This document shows, one piece after another, positions 1 through 13,117 of a stretch of 22,057 bases of DNA (the stretch's first letter is position 1; the number at the start of each line of letters is the position of its first letter). The notes under the pieces are model-generated. The model was not told the DNA's origin and made no database searches. It saw only the letters and a program-made list of their open reading frames with translations. Source of the stretch: a virus. Position numbers and translations under genes: made by a program. The DNA is taken from positions 1-22,057 of IMG/VR virus record IMGVR_UViG_3300042544_000722; one strand, given 5' to 3'.

Positions 1-522
1 TGAGTCGTAGTTGTATGCCTTTGCAGTCCACTTAAACTTATGGATGTCGCTCGTAGTCTTAAGGTCAATTACGGAGTCATCTGTAACAATGTCCGCCTTG
101 CCTTTCCACATCATGCCCTGTATCATACCAACTGCAGGAGTCTCATACAGATTGCCTGCCTTGTAAATCTCATCGTAGAATGCAATATTGCCATTGATAA
201 TGTTCACAAGACCCTGTATCTCATCCTGCTCCTTTTTAAGCATACAGAACGGAAGATTGTTATCCTCACAGAATGCTTTGTACTCTTTGGTTGTACGTGT
301 ACTCACATCAACGCTTAACATCTCTTTAGCCTTGCTAGGCTCTAATATTAACTGATGGAAGTATCTGCCATCCATGAACGCTTTACTGTCTTCTCTCTCT
401 TTACCGAAGTCCTGAGGGTTACTGAGCAACACGCCTATGTCTGAGTTGGATAAGTATTGCTTGCCTACACCTTTGTAATATTCTACATCGTCACGTAGTT
501 GTGTTATGATTTCTAATTCCAT
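1..522 (-). CDS. RecE-like PD-(D/E)XK exonuclease, N-terminal part (C-terminus beyond window)
   Basis: The first 174 residues of a leftward gene that leaves the window at base 1. They resemble the RecE/DUF3799 exonuclease family, which resects double-stranded DNA ends to leave 3' tails for annealing. Visible family features are FMDGRYFHQLILEP with H56, GKAD with catalytic-type D144, and VIDLKTT with D153 and K155, matching the H...D...D-x-K nuclease core. Its ATG (522-520) overlaps the stop codon of the annealing-protein gene by one base in TAATG, so the two are probably translationally coupled. An exonuclease next to a single-strand annealing protein is the standard phage recombination pair. 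The remaining C-terminal part cannot be judged. Confidence 0.8.
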   Translation of the reverse strand, partial: MELEIITQLRDDVEYYKGVGKQYLSNSDIGVLLSNPQDFGKEREDSKAFMDGRYFHQLILEPSKAKEMLSVDVSTRTTKEYKAFCEDNNLPFCMLKKEQDEIQGLVNIINGNIAFYDEIYKAGNLYETPAVGMIQGMMWKGKADIVTDDSVIDLKTTSDIHKFKWTAKAYNYDS

Positions 523-1172
523 TACTGTGCGTTTACAAGGTTAGCAATTTCTTTCTTGACAGCAGGACTAATCTTATACTTACGAACTAACTGACCACCA
601 ATCTTCTCAAGACCTAAAGCCTTGTTGGTTGTTACGTACTTAACAACGGCATCCCAATTAGCTGTGCCTTTCTTTAATTCAATTAAGCCATCATCTGTAG
701 CAGTATCTGCTTTTTTTGGTGCCTCAGGCTTCACTGTTGCAGTAGGCTCACCCTCAGGTAAGTCCTCACCTGCATAGATATAGATTCCCATTCCAAACAT
801 CGCTAAGTTTTTAACCAAGCAACGCATAATGGTCTTGTTAATGTCGAACATAGTAGCTGACTCAACCTGCTTATCGCCATATCTTGTGCTGTAGGTATAA
901 GAACGCTTAAGCATTGACTTGTTTGCTCCATCCATAACCGGTAGCCACATCTCCAATGTCTCTCCTTCAATGGTCACAGTAGTGTGACACATAAAGCCAA
1001 GAGACTCATCATAAACTGTATCTAAAACTTTATAGGTAGCATCAGGACACTCACGCTTAGTTGCTGACCATGCCCATGCCCATGATAGGTAGCTAAGGTC
1101 TTTTTTCTTCTCAACGTGCTCATTCACATTGATGGCGGATAGCCTCTCGAAAACTGATTTTTTCTTTTCCAT
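522..1172 (-). CDS. Single-strand annealing protein, Sak3/DUF1071-like
   Basis: A 216-aa protein that I recognise as DUF1071/Sak3-like from the N-terminal segment DLSYLSWAWAWSATKRECPD, the central LPVMDGANKS, and the FDINKTIMRCLVKNLAMFG helix. Such proteins anneal complementary single strands during phage recombination and usually partner an exonuclease, here the RecE-like gene immediately downstream with TAATG overlap. The frame is open 20 codons further upstream to 1232, but I prefer the ATG at 1172: family similarity begins there and it carries the AAATCAAATG start context seen at many genes in this phage. The C-terminal 45 residues are basic and less conserved. Family recall, not a search, supports the assignment. 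Confidence 0.75.
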   Translation of the reverse strand: MEKKKSVFERLSAINVNEHVEKKKDLSYLSWAWAWSATKRECPDATYKVLDTVYDESLGFMCHTTVTIEGETLEMWLPVMDGANKSMLKRSYTYSTRYGDKQVESATMFDINKTIMRCLVKNLAMFGMGIYIYAGEDLPEGEPTATVKPEAPKKADTATDDGLIELKKGTANWDAVVKYVTTNKALGLEKIGGQLVRKYKISPAVKKEIANLVNAQ

Positions 1173-1234
1173 TTGATTTGATTTAAGTGTTTGCACCTGA
1201 AGGTGCAAATATTTGATTTGATTAATTGACAATA

Positions 1235-1537
1235 CTAAATAAATACTGCTCTCTCTACCTCTTTGACAATGGACACATAGTCCCTGTCTTCTTCCATCCT
1301 CTGCTCAACAGAAGAGATTCCGTAGATTATTGAGGAATGCTTGATTTCGTATCCTGCTTCTCTCATATACTTTTGGATATATGTAATCTGCATAGGTCTC
1401 TTGTTACACAGGTAATAAACCAAATGCCTCGCATCTACGCACTCCCTCTTCTTTGACTTAGAGAACATCTCGTCCCTACTTACGCTAAAAAGGTCAGAGA
1501 CCCTTTCCACGTACTGATTAAAAACATCGTGCTTCAT
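1235..1537 (-). CDS. Free-standing DnaA domain-IV-like DNA-binding protein
   Basis: A 100-aa protein that aligns along nearly its whole length with the C-terminal DNA-binding domain of DnaA. It shows the V...F.VS.DE.FSKSKKR entry helix, the basic-loop segment ECVDARHLVYYL, and the second helix-turn-helix part ending HSSIIYGI around H67, which corresponds to the DHTT signature of cellular DnaA. The first residue of that signature is replaced by K66. No AAA+ domain is present, so it cannot be an initiator ATPase; it may bind DnaA-box-like DNA as a replication helper, competitor or regulator. It has its own promoter-like TATATTTG box upstream and is followed closely by the recombination genes. 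Confidence 0.7.
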   Translation of the reverse strand: MKHDVFNQYVERVSDLFSVSRDEMFSKSKKRECVDARHLVYYLCNKRPMQITYIQKYMREAGYEIKHSSIIYGISSVEQRMEEDRDYVSIVKEVERAVFI

Positions 1538-3929: not shown

Positions 3930-5039
3930 TTAGTCCCAATGCTGAAACCGTAACACATCAGACTCAGTGAACCACTCATCGCACCCACTGCAATGATAGT
4001 TTGCGAACTCATCATGCTCCAAATCGTGAAAGCAATTTACACAAATTGGCTTCTCATTCTCAATGTCGAACTCGCACCCCTCGCATTCATCATCCTTTAT
4101 CTCAAGAAGATTCAACTCATATTCACTGAACCTACTGAATGACCTGACCGTCTCCACCTCGTCCTGCTCCTTATACCAACTGTATTGATATGGCTTCTGT
4201 GTGTACGTCTTGTGGTGAACCTCACCTGCTGAACGCTCCTTGATATTGAAGTATATCCAACAGTTGAACACCCTGCCATCTGTGGCTTTTATCTCAACCT
4301 GCTTCCTCCTGTACCAATTAGGATGCCCCTCTAACCTGTCTAACTCAGCCAATACTGTTCCACTGACTTTGAATATGTCCACCTCCACATTGTGACCTCT
4401 ACCCTTGTCCTCAATCAGATAGGGTAGACCCTTGATGACCAACGGATACTTGTCTTTGGTCTGACCTTTGCCAATGTACTTTGAACTCGTAAGGTAGCTG
4501 TAGTAGTTACTATAATTTTTCTTCAGCGTGCCATACACGGCAACTAAATTGTCCTCTAACACATTGTCCTTGCTGTACCATACGCCATCCTTCTGAACCC
4601 ACGATTCTTTGTTGTAAATCTGAAACGTCCTGCTGTACGTGTTAATCGTAACGAACCTACAATCATAACGCTCCAACTCTTGCTTCCACTTGTGACGTGG
4701 TACACGCCCGATATTCTCTGCCAATACTCTTGAGTCACTTTTCTTGTGGTCACCCAATGCTCTGATAGTACCGTTCATCATCAGCCACTCCTGCTTATTG
4801 TTACCGCACCTGAACGGGTGCGTATTGTCTCTGTTGATAGCCCCGACTGTAGCGTATCTGAAGTGAGCAATGTACGGACGCTCTGTATCCAATACCTTGT
4901 ACTCTGCTGATTTGTGGTACGTCACGTGAAACGTGTCCAACCAAATGATTCCCAACCCGTGCGGATTGATTCTTGCTGAAGTTTTTGCAACCTCCTGAGG
5001 AACTGTCTTCCCTGACTGCTTGATAATAATTATACACAT
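3930..5039 (-). CDS. Class II glutamine amidotransferase + gamma-glutamylcyclotransferase + zinc-binding tail (fusion)
   Basis: A 369-aa protein in three parts. Residues 1-155 look like a class II (Ntn) glutamine amidotransferase: C2 directly after Met is the expected nucleophile, followed by AHFRYATVG (58-66), NTHPF (72-76) and MNGTI (88-92). Residues 165-285 look like a GGCT/AIG2-type cyclotransferase, with YGTL at 169-172 and LDRLEGHPNWYRR containing probable catalytic E237. Residues 319-353 carry three CxxC pairs (C319/C322, C333/C336, C350/C353), a likely zinc ribbon. Together they could hydrolyse glutamine or glutamyl amides and cyclise gamma-glutamyl groups. A GTGTCT hairpin and a TAAATTTG box precede it, and ribozyme 1 follows. 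The fusion itself is unfamiliar to me. Confidence 0.75.
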   Translation of the reverse strand: MCIIIIKQSGKTVPQEVAKTSARINPHGLGIIWLDTFHVTYHKSAEYKVLDTERPYIAHFRYATVGAINRDNTHPFRCGNNKQEWLMMNGTIRALGDHKKSDSRVLAENIGRVPRHKWKQELERYDCRFVTINTYSRTFQIYNKESWVQKDGVWYSKDNVLEDNLVAVYGTLKKNYSNYYSYLTSSKYIGKGQTKDKYPLVIKGLPYLIEDKGRGHNVEVDIFKVSGTVLAELDRLEGHPNWYRRKQVEIKATDGRVFNCWIYFNIKERSAGEVHHKTYTQKPYQYSWYKEQDEVETVRSFSRFSEYELNLLEIKDDECEGCEFDIENEKPICVNCFHDLEHDEFANYHCSGCDEWFTESDVLRFQHWD

Positions 5040-6772: not shown

Positions 6773-7345
6773 TTAATTGTTTAATAAAACTCTAACTGCT
6801 TTTACTACGTCATCAGGATGAACCACTATAAAGTAGTTTGGTCTGTACATGCCCGCAGTGTCGGACTCCATACGCTTTGTCTCTATGCCCGCCTCTGTAA
6901 GCAACGCCTCCACCGCCTCAAGCCTTGACTCCACCAACGTATAAAAGACGCTGTACACGGGTCGACTGTAGCCCTCAGGCATCCATTCACTTGTCGTGTC
7001 AAACTCAGGCTCAATAGCCACCGCCTGATACTCAAGCTCCCACATTTGCCTTCTTCTATATCCGTCCCACACCCATACGTTAGTCCATTCACCGTTCCAC
7101 TCCCTGCCATTCAGAAACCATACGCCACGCTCCTGCCTTACACTGACACCATTCAGCCCGTTTAACCGTTCCTTTGTGGTCTTGCTATCCCATCCCGCAT
7201 CAGTAATCCATAGGTTATTACCACGCCATTCAGCTATCTTGTTTTCAAATAACCACAGGCAATCGCCATCCGTTCTGCTGTTGTCAATCTTTAACGACCT
7301 ACGTTCCTCAAACGCCCTCGTAATTTCTGCTGTAATCTGTCTCAT
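6773..7345 (-). CDS. Conserved phage hypothetical protein, 190 aa, two-part
   Basis: No function known to me. The N-terminal about 100 residues have the pattern SRTDGDCLWLFENKIAEWRG, ITDAGWDSKTTKERLNGLNG, then VWFLNGREWNGEW. I associate this with a recurrent phage domain of unknown role, possibly a small beta-rich fold. The last about 70 residues (VESRLEAVEALLTEAGIETK, then FIVVHPDDVVKAVRVL) look like a separate alpha/beta ferredoxin-like domain. Its ATG overlaps the upstream membrane-peptide stop as ATGA. Base composition is somewhat more GC-rich than its neighbours. Confidence 0.7.
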   Translation of the reverse strand: MRQITAEITRAFEERRSLKIDNSRTDGDCLWLFENKIAEWRGNNLWITDAGWDSKTTKERLNGLNGVSVRQERGVWFLNGREWNGEWTNVWVWDGYRRRQMWELEYQAVAIEPEFDTTSEWMPEGYSRPVYSVFYTLVESRLEAVEALLTEAGIETKRMESDTAGMYRPNYFIVVHPDDVVKAVRVLLNN

Positions 7346-9322: not shown

Positions 9323-9564
9323 AATTTTGTTTTTAAGTGTTAAATGTTCAATTTTCGTCAACCGTCCGTCGGTTGCATGTACAATTATCGTCAATTACTT
9401 TATATCTGCAAAATTTATTTTCACTTTTTTTCACTTTTTTTTAATTTATTTGATTTAGAGTAAGTTAGACGCGATTTTTTATTGAACAAAATTTAGACGG
9501 TTAGTTGACGGGCAAGGTGTTAAGCCCTCTTTTAAGGTGCTTTGTGTCTATAAAGACACGTTCT
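9323..9564. promoter_or_regulatory. AT-rich leader and promoter area of the leftward operon
   Basis: No gene is supported here. It holds an inverted repeat CAACCG/CGGTTG around five bases (9359-9375), two TCGTCAA direct repeats flanking it, two TTAGACG repeats further right (about 9466 and 9493), and a GTGTCT/AGACAC hairpin at 9544-9559. On the minus strand TAAATTTTG near 9411-9419 resembles a -7 box but with one extra base. This arrangement is typical of an operator/promoter zone for the leftward transcript, but the actual start site cannot be fixed from sequence. Confidence 0.45.
9544..9559 (-). repeat. GTGTCT-N4-AGACAC hairpin in the control region
   Basis: A perfect 6-bp stem around ATAA on the + strand. 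It is the most upstream member of the hairpin family, about 220 bases before the first leftward ATG, and not next to any gene end. Confidence 0.6.
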
Positions 9565-9780
9565 AACAGGTAAACAGGGACGCACACACGCACACAGGAC
9601 GCGGATACAGGGCACGGGCACGGCAAACAGGGCATGCACGGGTGCAATGGGCACGCAATGGGGGGCACGGGCACGGGATACGTGTAGCAAAACGCCAAAA
9701 AATCAGCAAAGGGCAAAGGGAAACGCACCCCCACCCCATGAAAAAAAAGTCACTTTCGGTCCGGGGCTCGCCTCGCCAAA
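9565..9780. other. GC-rich, G-tract-rich noncoding island
   Basis: Strikingly GC-rich and G-biased on the + strand compared with the AT-rich surroundings. It contains two copies of GGGCACGGGCACGG (9610-9623, 9663-9676), two GCAATGGG repeats 11 bases apart (9644, 9655), about five ACAGG units, and a TGCAC/GTGCA palindrome (9635-9646). Four or more GGG runs at 9649-9677 could form a G-quadruplex. Open frames on the minus strand here are Pro/Cys/Arg-rich low-complexity and not credible genes. Possible roles are an origin or terminus, a packaging signal, or a transcription block between divergent operons. Confidence 0.6.
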
Positions 9781-9861: not shown

Positions 9862-10095
9862 ATGAAGTTAAAATTTGGAAACTCTGTTTACAAGGCAGAC
9901 TTGTCAAACAGTATTTATCAGCAGAGTGGTGCTGACTTTGGGTTGACTGTGAATAAGGGTATGTTGATTAACAACAGACCTGATGGACAGACCGGCATTC
10001 AGCAGGCTGCACAATTGAAGAGTGATGTTAAGCGTGCTAAGAAGATTGACATGTATGCTGAGGCTGTGATGTTGGGTAATATGAGGGAGATGTAA
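9862..10095 (+). CDS. Hypothetical protein, 77 aa, isolated rightward gene
   Basis: Not recognised. MKLKFGNSVYKADLSNSIYQ looks beta-rich at the start, then a basic helix (AAQLKSDVKRAKKIDMYAEA). I use the ATG at 9862 rather than the TTG at 9823, which lies inside the promoter box. It has its own promoter-like sequence and an intrinsic terminator, so it is probably transcribed alone, between the control region and the groEL operon. Small size, basic helix and position would suit a regulator, but nothing in the sequence proves that. Confidence 0.6.
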   Translation: MKLKFGNSVYKADLSNSIYQQSGADFGLTVNKGMLINNRPDGQTGIQQAAQLKSDVKRAKKIDMYAEAVMLGNMREM

Positions 10096-10152: not shown

Positions 10153-10553
10153 CTATTTAATGCATACATCAGATAATACCTTTGTAGGATTCTGATGTAT
10201 AAATGTCAAGATTGACATTTTATACCTGTTTTTATGTCGATTTTATGTCGATTTTATTTTCATAACTTCCTTATTATTAATACTTTATCTCTTTAATGTC
10301 GAAAATGTCGAAAAAAAAGAAGAAATGTAGTGTAAAAAAAATAGAAAGGAGGGGAATATATATAGTAGTAGTAGGGGAAAAATTTTCGACATTCTGTCAT
10401 TTCTATGGTAAACCATACCATAATCTTTGTTGTTGGTATTGTTAAGGCATATTTGCTTAAAATAAAATCGACATTATTTAAGAAATAATCGACATGGCAT
10501 AAAATTTGTTGACATTTGATTATATTTGTGGTATAAAAATTAAATCAAATTAA
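10153..10553. other. AT-rich noncoding region with palindromes and ATGTCGA repeats (candidate origin or operator array)
   Basis: No gene is supported. It opens with a 10-bp inverted repeat, ATACATCAGA (10164-10173) and TCTGATGTAT (10191-10200). The right arm overlaps a second palindrome, GTATAAATGTCAA (10197-10209) with TTGACATTTTATAC (10212-10225). Four ATGTCGA copies (10234, 10245, 10296, 10305) follow in one orientation and three TCGACAT copies (10386, 10468, 10489) in the other, plus TTGACAT variants at 10212 and 10509. A TATGGT/ACCATA palindrome lies at 10404-10417. Iterons next to AT-rich DNA suggest an origin or a repressor array controlling groEL. Confidence 0.55.
10521..10528 (+). 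promoter_or_regulatory. Promoter-like TATATTTG box for the groEL operon
   Basis: TATATTTG lies 25 bases before the groEL ATG. TTTG at 10505-10508 and TTGACAT at 10509-10515 lie just upstream, closer than a standard -33 box, so the upstream element is uncertain. The TTGACAT variant of the repeat family touches this promoter, so a protein binding the repeats could regulate it. Confidence 0.5.
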
Positions 10554-12170
10554 ATGATAGAGACATCAGGAATTGGGTATTCACCCAAGGACTTGCAGTT
10601 CGGAAACGAGGGACGCAAGAAATTAATCAGTGGAGTTATTAAAATGTCAAAGGCTGTCAAGTCAACCTTGGGTCCAAGTGGAAACACGGTGCTCATTGAG
10701 AGCCCGCATCATACTCATGGTATTACTGTGACTAAGGATGGTGTTACTGTGGCTAAGGCTATTGACCTGATTGACCCAAGTGAGAACCTTGCGGTTAAGA
10801 TGATGAAGGAGGCGGCAGATAAGACCGCTACTGCGGCAGGTGATGGAACGACTACGGCTATTGTCTTGACTGAGGGGTTAGTGTTAGGTGGTCTTGAGCA
10901 TATCAAGGACGAGATGAATAGGACTGAGGTGTTGAGACACATGGTGGACATAACTGCTAAGGTGGTGGACAAGCTAAAGCGTAAGGCAAAGAAGGTCAGC
11001 AGTACGATGCTATTAGACGTGGCATCAATCTCATCAAACAATGACCGTGAGATAGGGCGTATTATTTCTGAGGTATACAAGGATGTGGGTAAGACCGGTA
11101 TTGTTACGGTGGAGCGAAGCCAAACGGCTGAGACGTATGCCGAGACAACCAAGGGGTTGAAGATTGATAGGGGGTATTTAAGTCCGCTGTTCATTAATGA
11201 CACCAAGAAGGATGAGTGTGTGTTTGAGGATGTGATGGTATTGGTGGCTGACATGGAGATAGCAAACATATTGCAAATTGAGAACGTGCTAAAACCAATA
11301 ATTTCCGAAGGAAAAAAATTATTGGTGATATCGCCGTGCAATCCTAACGTGGTAAACACGCTTGCAGCAAACAGCATGAAGGGAAATTTGAAGGTAGTGG
11401 CTGTGCCGCCACCAAACTTTGGATATAAGCAGCATGAGCTGATGCATGACATAGCGATAAGCGTTGGTGCTACCTACTTCAGCGAGAAGACGGGTGACGA
11501 CTTGAGCATCATCAACTACGGTGACTTGGGTCACGCAAGTAAAGTCATTGTGAGCAAGGACAAGACGGTTATCATTCGCAGTGCAGCAAAGTCAGACGAG
11601 AGTATTATTGAGGAGCGTGTTAAGCAGTTGTGGAACGCACATAAGGAGGCAACTAAGAAGGGTGACAAAGACTTTATATTGGAGCGTATAGCATCACTTA
11701 CAGGTGGCATAGGTGTCATCTTTGTGGGTGGTCAGACTGACCTAGAGCAGAAGGAGCTGTACGACAGGGTTGATGACGCGGTCTGTGCGGTACGTTCAGC
11801 ACTCGAGGAGGGTATATTGCCCGGAGCAGGCAAAGCGTTGCTTGATGAGAGTGCTGACTTGGGACAGGAGAGTAATAGTGTTGAGTATAATGCCGCACTT
11901 GCTATTGTTCGCAATGCACTGATGGCTCCATTCCAACAAATATTGGCTAACGCAGGTCTTAAGCCGAGTGACGTGTACAAGGACAAAACTCCTATTGGTC
12001 ACGGATACAACCTAAAGACAGGTGAGATGGGTGACCTGATTGAGATGGGGGTTATTGACCCGCTAAAGGTTACACGATGTGCACTGCAGAACGCAGTGAG
12101 TGTGGCAGTGACCATACTTTCAACTAACGCAATCATTACAATGGCACGCACCTATGAGCAGCAACAATAA
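10554..12170 (+). CDS. groEL: Phage-encoded GroEL-type chaperonin
   Basis: A 538-aa group I chaperonin, close to the usual about 545. ATP-site motifs are present: TLGPSGN near 38-44, TKDGVTVAK at 60-68, GDGTTTA with D97, and VDDAVCAVRSALEEG, where D408 corresponds to the catalytic aspartate of bacterial GroEL. The hinge glycines appear as EEGILPGAG (bacteria usually have PGGG). The C-terminus ends ARTYEQQQ with no Gly-Gly-Met tail. It should form a folding chamber for virion or other phage proteins with the GroES encoded downstream. The start context is AAATCAAATTAAATG. The sequence is clearly divergent from host-type GroEL, which argues for long residence in phages. Confidence 0.95.
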   Translation: MIETSGIGYSPKDLQFGNEGRKKLISGVIKMSKAVKSTLGPSGNTVLIESPHHTHGITVTKDGVTVAKAIDLIDPSENLAVKMMKEAADKTATAAGDGTTTAIVLTEGLVLGGLEHIKDEMNRTEVLRHMVDITAKVVDKLKRKAKKVSSTMLLDVASISSNNDREIGRIISEVYKDVGKTGIVTVERSQTAETYAETTKGLKIDRGYLSPLFINDTKKDECVFEDVMVLVADMEIANILQIENVLKPIISEGKKLLVISPCNPNVVNTLAANSMKGNLKVVAVPPPNFGYKQHELMHDIAISVGATYFSEKTGDDLSIINYGDLGHASKVIVSKDKTVIIRSAAKSDESIIEERVKQLWNAHKEATKKGDKDFILERIASLTGGIGVIFVGGQTDLEQKELYDRVDDAVCAVRSALEEGILPGAGKALLDESADLGQESNSVEYNAALAIVRNALMAPFQQILANAGLKPSDVYKDKTPIGHGYNLKTGEMGDLIEMGVIDPLKVTRCALQNAVSVAVTILSTNAIITMARTYEQQQ

Positions 12171-12395: not shown

Positions 12396-12653
12396 ATGAA
12401 ACCAATCGGAAAATATATAATAGTTAAAGACATACAAGAGACCATCACTACGGAGAGTGGTCTGATACTATCAGGTGAAGACACCAATCAGCTACGCTAT
12501 AAGCGTGCCTCTGTCATAGCACCCGGCACTGACGTGAGTGTTATTGACGAAGGTGACGAGTTATACTACGACAAGGGTCACAGCTTCACGATGCTCATAG
12601 ATGACAGTCAGTATACCATCATCTCTGAGCGTGACGTGGTTGTGGTGCTTTAG
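12396..12653 (+). CDS. groES: GroES-type co-chaperonin
   Basis: An 85-aa protein, slightly shorter than the usual 95-97. The beta-barrel start KYIIVKDIQE, the flexible loop ending in SGLIL (21-25, corresponding to the GGIVL motif that contacts GroEL), VIAPG (40-44), VIDEGDELYYDKG, and the end YTIISERDVVVVL follow the GroES order. The frame is open upstream to 12360, but the family similarity begins at the ATG at 12396. It caps the phage GroEL, possibly also that of the host. The stop codon overlaps by 4 bases the stop of the leftward gene that follows. Confidence 0.85.
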   Translation: MKPIGKYIIVKDIQETITTESGLILSGEDTNQLRYKRASVIAPGTDVSVIDEGDELYYDKGHSFTMLIDDSQYTIISERDVVVVL

Positions 12654-13117
12654 TCTTCTTCTTCTTTGACTTGTTTTGGTGGCGTACGGTAAGGGTTTGC
12701 TTTTTGGTAGGCGTTCATTTGGATAATCATGTTCCTATAAACCTTATCATTGTAGCAAACATTCTTATGGAACATTGAGTTGTATGATATGCTAACGGGG
12801 ATTTCTTCCCCGTTTAGTTTTCTGTAGATGTCCAATACCATGCGAGTAGCTTTAAAACTCAGTTGATAAAGTGCTTTACCATCCTTACCTTTCCTTCTGA
12901 ATCGTTCAATCCATCCTTCATGGCGTAGGCGTTCAAATCTTCCTAACTCCCAACTTACAAGTTCAGCAAATTCATCGAACTTTTCCTTGCCAAAATAGCT
13001 TTCTGAGTATAAAAAAAGTATCATGTCAAGGTCAGCTTGACCTAAACCATGCTTGGATTTCATGTAATATCTTATTACTCTCCAAAATTTTAGGTAGTCA
13101 TGTGGTTGTGTTTTCAT
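12650..13117 (-). CDS. Winged-helix (MarR-like) protein, leftward within the late block
   Basis: A 155-aa protein whose first about 100 residues read as a winged helix: LGQADLDMILFLYSES, ELGRFERLRHEGWIERFRR with the basic wing KGKDGKALYQLS, then helix TRMVLDIYRKLNGEEIP. I recall the pattern from Bacteroidota phage genes near structural clusters; a DNA-binding role is inferred from fold only. It is the only leftward gene right of 9400. It converges on groES and diverges from the gene at 13164, so it could control both or be a later insertion. Confidence 0.65.
   Translation of the reverse strand: MKTQPHDYLKFWRVIRYYMKSKHGLGQADLDMILFLYSESYFGKEKFDEFAELVSWELGRFERLRHEGWIERFRRKGKDGKALYQLSFKATRMVLDIYRKLNGEEIPVSISYNSMFHKNVCYNDKVYRNMIIQMNAYQKANPYRTPPKQVKEEED

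Follow-up and report, generated by a model that had tools for sequence, protein, structure and literature searches.

An ATGTCGA box cluster upstream of groEL as one of two copies of a putative phage replication-origin element

A composite element upstream of groEL

The window analyzed here comprises an entire IMG/VR record (22,057 bp), which represents a fragment of a virus genome. Its left end, which lies within an exonuclease gene, carries part of a replication and recombination block, in which a gene for a Sak-type single-strand annealing protein neighbors a gene encoding a stand-alone DnaA domain IV protein. Some 9 kb to the right, in an AT-rich region (31% GC) before groEL, lies a dense cluster of short repeats with the sequence ATGTCGA. 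The features discussed in this work are the following (strand is given where one applies):

1..522, minus strand: exonuclease, PDDEXK-like DUF3799, cut by the end of the window (PF12684, E 1.1e-15)
522..1232, minus strand: Sak-type single-strand annealing protein (coordinates of the open reading frame; likely start near 1169; PF06378, E 1.3e-46)
1235..1537, minus strand: stand-alone DnaA domain IV protein, 100 aa, candidate box-binding protein (Pfam PF08299)
10203..10218: inverted pair of variant boxes, ATGTCAAgaTTGACAT, read directly from the sequence; close relatives have the pair or at least its right half
10234..10251: outer tandem pair, ATGTCGA at 10234 and 10245, 11 bp apart; the DnaA-box register reads on the minus strand
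10263..10283, minus strand: IHF-site-like segment, TAACTTCCTTATTATTAATAC, with two departures from the consensus YAANNNNTTGATW in the window and exact in most relatives
10296..10311: inner tandem pair, ATGTCGA at 10296 and 10305, 9 bp apart
10312..10383: candidate DNA unwinding element with AAAGGAGGGGAATATATATAGTAGTAGTAGGGG, AT-rich and purine-rich on the plus strand
10386..10392, minus strand: inverted box closing the core
10468..10515, minus strand: extra boxes at 10468 and 10489, 21 bp apart, and the variant TTGACAT at 10509; outside the conserved core
10554..12170, plus strand: groEL, a neighbor that we do not judge to be part of the element

An initial annotation of the window had reported seven exact copies of ATGTCGA, 4 on the plus strand (10234, 10245, 10296, and 10305) and 3 on the minus strand (10386, 10468, and 10489), with spacings of 11 and 21 bp and near-variants TTGACAT at 10212 and 10509. 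All of these were found as described. In addition to the reported spacings, the boxes at 10296 and 10305 form a pair 9 bp apart, and an ATGTCAA at 10203, which had been overlooked, makes an inverted pair together with the TTGACAT at 10212. Counting the variant ATGTCAA as well adds the sites at 10203, 10212, and 10509 to the cluster. ATGTCGA occurs 9 times in the window, against 1.4 expected and a maximum of 4 in 100 shuffles. When each 7-mer was ranked by its densest 270 bp, ATGTCGA was the most clustered of all, with 7 copies; the runner-up had 5, and block shuffles that preserve local composition gave at most 4. The AT-richness of the region could in principle produce a chance or compositional cluster, but no shuffle reached the observed count, and the anatomy described below is conserved at 2 sites across dozens of divergent phages, so that the probability of this explanation is negligible.

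A search with GroEL yielded 80 related viral contigs, up to 95% identical. Of 74 relatives with 300 bp or more of sequence upstream of groEL, 72 had an exact ATGTCGA there (counted by eye), while the 2 exceptions, L055 and L073, carry variant boxes. The location, whose conservation had been put forward as a check, is thus retained in related phages. Alignment delimited a core of approximately 200 bp, consisting of the 11-bp pair, the IHF-like segment, the 9-bp pair, the AT-rich tract, and the inverted box, often preceded in relatives by an inverted variant pair. In the aligned relatives, the segment between the tandem pairs reads TAACTTATTGATTATTAATAC, the 9-bp-spaced pair reads ATGTCGAAAATGTCGA, and the tract, which is AT-rich, purine-rich, and box-free over some 75 bp, reads AAAGGAGGNAATATATATAGAGAGTAGGGGAA. 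Motifs within the tract were kept in many of the 36 groEL copies (TATATATA in 26, TAGGG in 25, and AGGAGG in 19). The 21-bp-spaced extra boxes toward groEL are present in some relatives (L008, L010, and L007) and absent in others. One groEL copy (L018, the same as G006) has no AT-rich tract at all, as if deleted, while the close relative L019 keeps it. This absence is either a natural loss or an assembly error, and it suggests that the groEL copy may be dispensable, secondary, or non-replicative in that phage.

The exact IHF consensus was found in 24 of the 36 nonredundant groEL copies, compared to about 1% in shuffles. It occurs at either of 2 positions about 10 bases, or one helical turn, apart, a shift that keeps helical phase and so should be tolerable for a folded protein–DNA complex. 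Judged by the site definition WATCAANNNNTTR, the groEL copies as a group contain a putative IHF site, from which the copy in the window departs at 2 positions. The same segment can be recognized in the second copy of the element described below, where a relaxed form was found on one strand in 22 of 31 copies (shuffle maximum, 5).

Several other features of the window and its relatives were recorded. Directly before the element lies a gene for a 77-aa protein (9862-10095), present in 10 of 11 related genomes, without a Pfam or PHROGs family. Farther left (9560-9740), where the 2 gene arms diverge, is a G+C-rich low-complexity tract with GGGCACGGGCACGG and similar sequences; such a tract lies 0.6 to 1.3 kb left of groEL in G003, G005, G007, G011, and MW202828 as well, conserved in position and not in its letters. 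Adjoining it, at 9686-9765, are GCAAAACGCCAAAAAATC and CCCCCACCCCATgAAAAAAAAGTC, which look conserved in G005 and G007 and may represent a terminator, a promoter, or a packaging signal. To the right, a minus-strand gene (12650-13117) overlaps the end of groES and is present in all 11 genomes; it is named “repressor protein” in MW202828.1 and belongs to a PHROG of unknown function. Elsewhere on the minus strand are genes for a 369-aa protein (3930-5039) that combines a gamma-glutamyl cyclotransferase domain with a part weakly resembling class-II glutamine amidotransferases and for a 190-aa protein with a Kyanoviridae Gp96 domain (6773-7345). No Rfam family matched within the window.

A second copy before the primase-helicase gene

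A profile of the element, built from the 36 nonredundant groEL copies, was used to scan 10 near-complete IMG/VR genomes and the circular GenBank record MW202828.1. In all 11 genomes it matched 2 places, always on the same strand: one before groEL and one 9 to 16 kb to its left. The second place in G013 consisted of 2 adjacent or overlapping tandem matches, and further matches were weak and mostly inside the same elements. The cluster is therefore not spread over the genome; a motif of equal density throughout is what the initial annotation had named as a refutation. What had been described as an iteron cluster upstream of groEL is real as a cluster, and forms one of 2 copies of a composite element to which a box-free AT-rich tract also belongs.

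The second copy lies between a gene for an SSB-like protein (104 aa, with the carboxyl terminus DDDGELPF) and a primase-helicase gene with BT4734-like_N, PriCT_1, and DUF5906 domains. Moving left, the block consists of the DnaA domain IV gene, the Sak annealing protein, the exonuclease, the SSB-like gene, the element, and the primase-helicase. A second copy in the phage of the window would lie beyond its left end, which cuts the exonuclease gene: in relatives (gene order in G003), one finds to the left of the exonuclease first the SSB-like gene, then the second copy and the primase. In these sister copies, the 11-bp pair sits directly before the start codon of the primase.

Such a placement could point to a purely regulatory role, in which the elements would not be origins and would act purely as operator arrays, through which a regulator (the DnaA domain IV protein or another phage protein) sets when the primase operon and the late genes led by groEL are expressed. 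Both copies are intergenic and precede important genes, and at the primase copy the outer pair abuts the start codon. The extra boxes near groEL differ in number, as regulatory sites do, and bacterial DnaA also acts as a transcription factor. The core, however, keeps one genomic orientation while groEL and the primase gene run in opposite directions, so that the 2 copies are oppositely oriented relative to their downstream genes and there is no constant arrangement of element and following gene. Similarly, the distance to groEL varies by hundreds of bases (about −165 to −720 for the 9-bp pair), and L073 has a further gene between the element and groEL. A fixed position relative to a regulated promoter, as in an operator array, was thus not observed, and the opposite gene-relative orientation and the variable distance together disfavor a plain promoter operator. 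An operator would also have no need for a box-free AT-rich tract of approximately 75 bp with conserved content and extremely low stability. We therefore consider operator arrays alone to be unlikely, although a transcriptional role, alone or in addition to another and perhaps through an operator of a different design, is possible, above all at the primase copy. The association with groEL in the initial annotation accordingly describes where this copy lies and does not tie the element to that gene, given its variable distance, the intervening gene, and the sister copy before the primase.

Duplex stability was calculated with a nearest-neighbor model over 60-bp stretches. Both copies fell within the least stable 0.51% of the genome in all 11 genomes, and the primase copy was the least stable place in most of them. 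Within the short window, the element region reached only the lowest 2.4%, with the minimum near 10251.

Two other features associated with origins were considered. DnaA-trios (3'-GAT-5') beside boxes, as in the basal origin unwinding system, are present in the window, and reading TAGTAGTAG in this way is attractive in single genomes. This reading was rejected, as trios were not enriched over shuffles: the counts of TAGTAG (3 of the 36 groEL copies, 6 of the 31 primase copies) were no higher than those reached in shuffles. GC skew, which had been suggested as a check on an origin, showed a detrended minimum 0.5 to 1.5 kb left of groEL in all 11 genomes. Gene direction flips at this minimum, however, and the skew is locally weaker at 12650-13117, where the only minus-strand gene of the right side lies. 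As the skew tracks the gene strand, it does not provide independent support for an origin and was set aside.

Finding 2 copies that always share an orientation would be compatible as well with a site for partition, packaging, or recombination composed of repeats that a protein binds. Neither copy, though, has a gene for partition or packaging next to it, the second being flanked by the SSB-like and primase-helicase genes, and the annotation of MW202828 lists no integrase and no partition protein. We regard this explanation as very improbable.

A stand-alone DnaA domain IV protein and its candidate box

The 100-aa protein encoded in the window scored above the Pfam cut-off for Bac_DnaA_C (PF08299; E 2.5e-9, 37.5 bits against a cut-off of 31.5). 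Its AlphaFold2 model (pLDDT 95.8) shows a six-helix fold that matches DnaA–DNA complexes: the 9 best PDB matches are all DnaA, including 1j1v and 3pvp, with TM scores of about 0.8, while the Foldseek E-values for these matches are only 1e-3 to 0.2. Rather than a full DnaA initiator, the protein represents domain IV alone, without the AAA+ domain III. In a limited literature search, we found nothing on point for stand-alone DnaA domain IV proteins of phages.

The gene for the 100-aa protein was present in all 11 genomes scanned with the element profile, and at least one DnaA domain IV protein of approximately 100 aa passed the Pfam cut-off in each of 18 related genomes scanned. A profile search recovered 187 viral relatives of the protein, and dozens of these showed the same anatomy before the primase, down to about 50% identity, with the lineage-specific box variants TCGACA, TTGACA, TTAACA, and TCAACA. 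The search of phages yielded no cultured relative, only the metagenomic record MW202828.1. Among 84,980 bacterial and archaeal genomes, a single relative was found (L345, JAAGZR010000163.1), on a contig from a metagenome-assembled genome labeled Aliivibrio, which is probably a binned phage contig.

To approach the association from the other side, loci were also picked by the primase alone. These contained 4.6 boxes per 250 bp, compared to 1.25 in shuffles, and the DnaA domain IV protein was encoded 2 to 4 kb away in 50 of 53 loci. The other 3 carried boxes and no DnaA domain IV gene within the stretch examined. With the protein present at nearly all of these loci, a comparison with phages that lack it had little power.

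The consensus of the box, WWWTCGACA, equals the DnaA box TTATCCACA with the C at position 6 replaced by G. Base by base, the groEL copies show T (72%), T (64%), T or A, T (97%), C, G, A, C, A, and then a T. The form seen most often in the primase copies was AAATCGACAT, and TTATCGACA also occurred. As the last bases of the box were fixed by the search, only the first positions and the choices between C and T and between G and A are informative. The box is thus not a bacterial DnaA box of the form TTATCCACA or TTATNCACA, since position 6 is a G, or an A in some lineages.

We then asked whether this altered box varies together with the protein. In E. coli DnaA, the bases are contacted by residues 399, 423, 432-435, and 438-439 (PMC5043019). 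The residue aligned with E. coli D433 is almost never an aspartate in the phage family. Classes of recognition helix and box first seen by eye were post hoc, so all alignment columns were ranked instead, with a correction for overall relatedness. Residue 66, the one aligned with D433 at a base-contacting position, covaried with box base 6 with a partial r of 0.19 (p 0.018), ranking sixth of 77 columns. L219 and L225 share a recognition helix and have different boxes, and G009 and G010 have degenerate recognition helices and have nonetheless kept their boxes. The covariation is weak, and is suggestive rather than proof of a DnaA domain IV protein that reads the box.

The element could also be an origin with another reader: the DnaA of the host, a larger DnaA domain IV protein, or a 155-aa protein encoded beside groES. 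A second DnaA domain IV protein of about 180 to 230 aa was found in MW202828.1 (60107-60676) and in G006, G010, G011, G013, G016, G017, and G018, in some cases with the canonical DHTT motif. The 155-aa protein, like the 100-aa protein, is present in all 11 genomes, and 3 box-bearing loci lacked the 100-aa protein nearby. Against these candidates, the larger protein was not detected in every one of the 18 genomes scanned, the box differs from the bacterial DnaA box at position 6, and the 155-aa protein belongs to no recognized DNA-binding family and is encoded outside the replication block. An origin read by one of these proteins seems improbable to us, about as much so as an array of operators.

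Twin origin-like elements and their relation to known origins

Based on these data, we propose that the cluster is one of 2 copies of a phage replication-origin element, for which the DnaA domain IV protein, the DnaA-like protein that the initial annotation had proposed for binding tests, is the best candidate reader. From the sequence comparisons presented here, we estimate the probability of this reading at roughly 64%. Of the 2 functions for which the initial annotation considered such repeats typical, an origin-like element is the better supported, while a repressor array is a live, weaker alternative. Co-occurrence, synteny, and gene content suggest that these phages probably have twin origins organized like those of SPP1 and read by the DnaA domain IV protein.

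In the proposed mechanism, the small DnaA domain IV protein would bind the WWWTCGACA boxes (TTTTCGACAT boxes), and a host protein of the IHF/HU type would bend the DNA between the 2 tandem pairs. The resulting protein–DNA complex would melt the AT-rich tract, at which the phage primase-helicase and the SSB could be loaded. Bacterial oriC is opened by the AAA+ motor of DnaA; as the phage protein consists of domain IV without this motor, melting would need another protein. The 2 copies may serve as primary and secondary origins, like oriL and oriR of SPP1, with the groEL copy possibly being the secondary site, and the copy before the primase could also autoregulate the replication genes.

Both DnaA boxes and twin origins of phages have been described before. 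Our limited literature search did not turn up a large group of uncultured phages that combines twin origins with a shifted DnaA box and a DnaA domain IV that stands alone. A broader proposition would be that a large group of uncultured phages has twin oriC-like origins with an altered DnaA box, a DnaA reduced to its DNA-binding domain, and a primase-helicase that replaces the AAA+ motor, to which we assign slightly less than an even chance. If true, a widespread group of phages would have taken the DNA-reading domain of DnaA, altered its preferred site, and dispensed with the origin-opening ATPase, offering a natural experiment on which portions of DnaA are required for the initiation of replication. 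It would also provide a short, defined origin/protein pair that is testable in vitro, and the element profile could be used to mark origins in the genomes of uncultured phages.

Of the known systems, the origins of E. coli and B. subtilis share with the element asymmetric TTATCCACA-like boxes clustered beside an AT-rich unwinding tract and a protein with the DnaA domain IV fold; oriC of E. coli also has an IHF-consensus segment. Unlike in bacterial oriC, base 6 of the box is G or A here and not C, the protein lacks an AAA+ domain, and DnaA-trios are not enriched. Iteron plasmid origins likewise carry direct repeats near an AT-rich region. Whereas these form a single array of iterons of about 20 bp, the boxes here are short, occur in both orientations, and are spaced 9, 11, or 21 bp apart, and no Rep protein of a plasmid family was recognized among the proteins scanned.

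The closest organization is that of SPP1, which has 2 origins about 13 kb apart, each with repeats and an AT-rich DNA unwinding element and both bound by a single phage protein, gp38, and whose early genes include an exonuclease, an annealing protein, and an SSB (PMC6316719). Similarly, each genome studied here contains 2 similarly organized sites with boxes and a candidate AT-rich unwinding element, 9 to 16 kb apart. As in SPP1, one site is associated with replication genes while the other is intergenic, and an exonuclease, an annealing protein, and an SSB-like protein are again encoded. The 2 systems differ in the reader, which is gp38 in SPP1 and would be the DnaA domain IV protein here, and in the IHF-like segment between 2 tandem box pairs, which sets these phages apart from SPP1. 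They differ as well in their replication genes, with a primase-helicase of the BT4734/PriCT_1/DUF5906 type here in place of the gp39/gp40 loader and DnaB-type helicase of SPP1.
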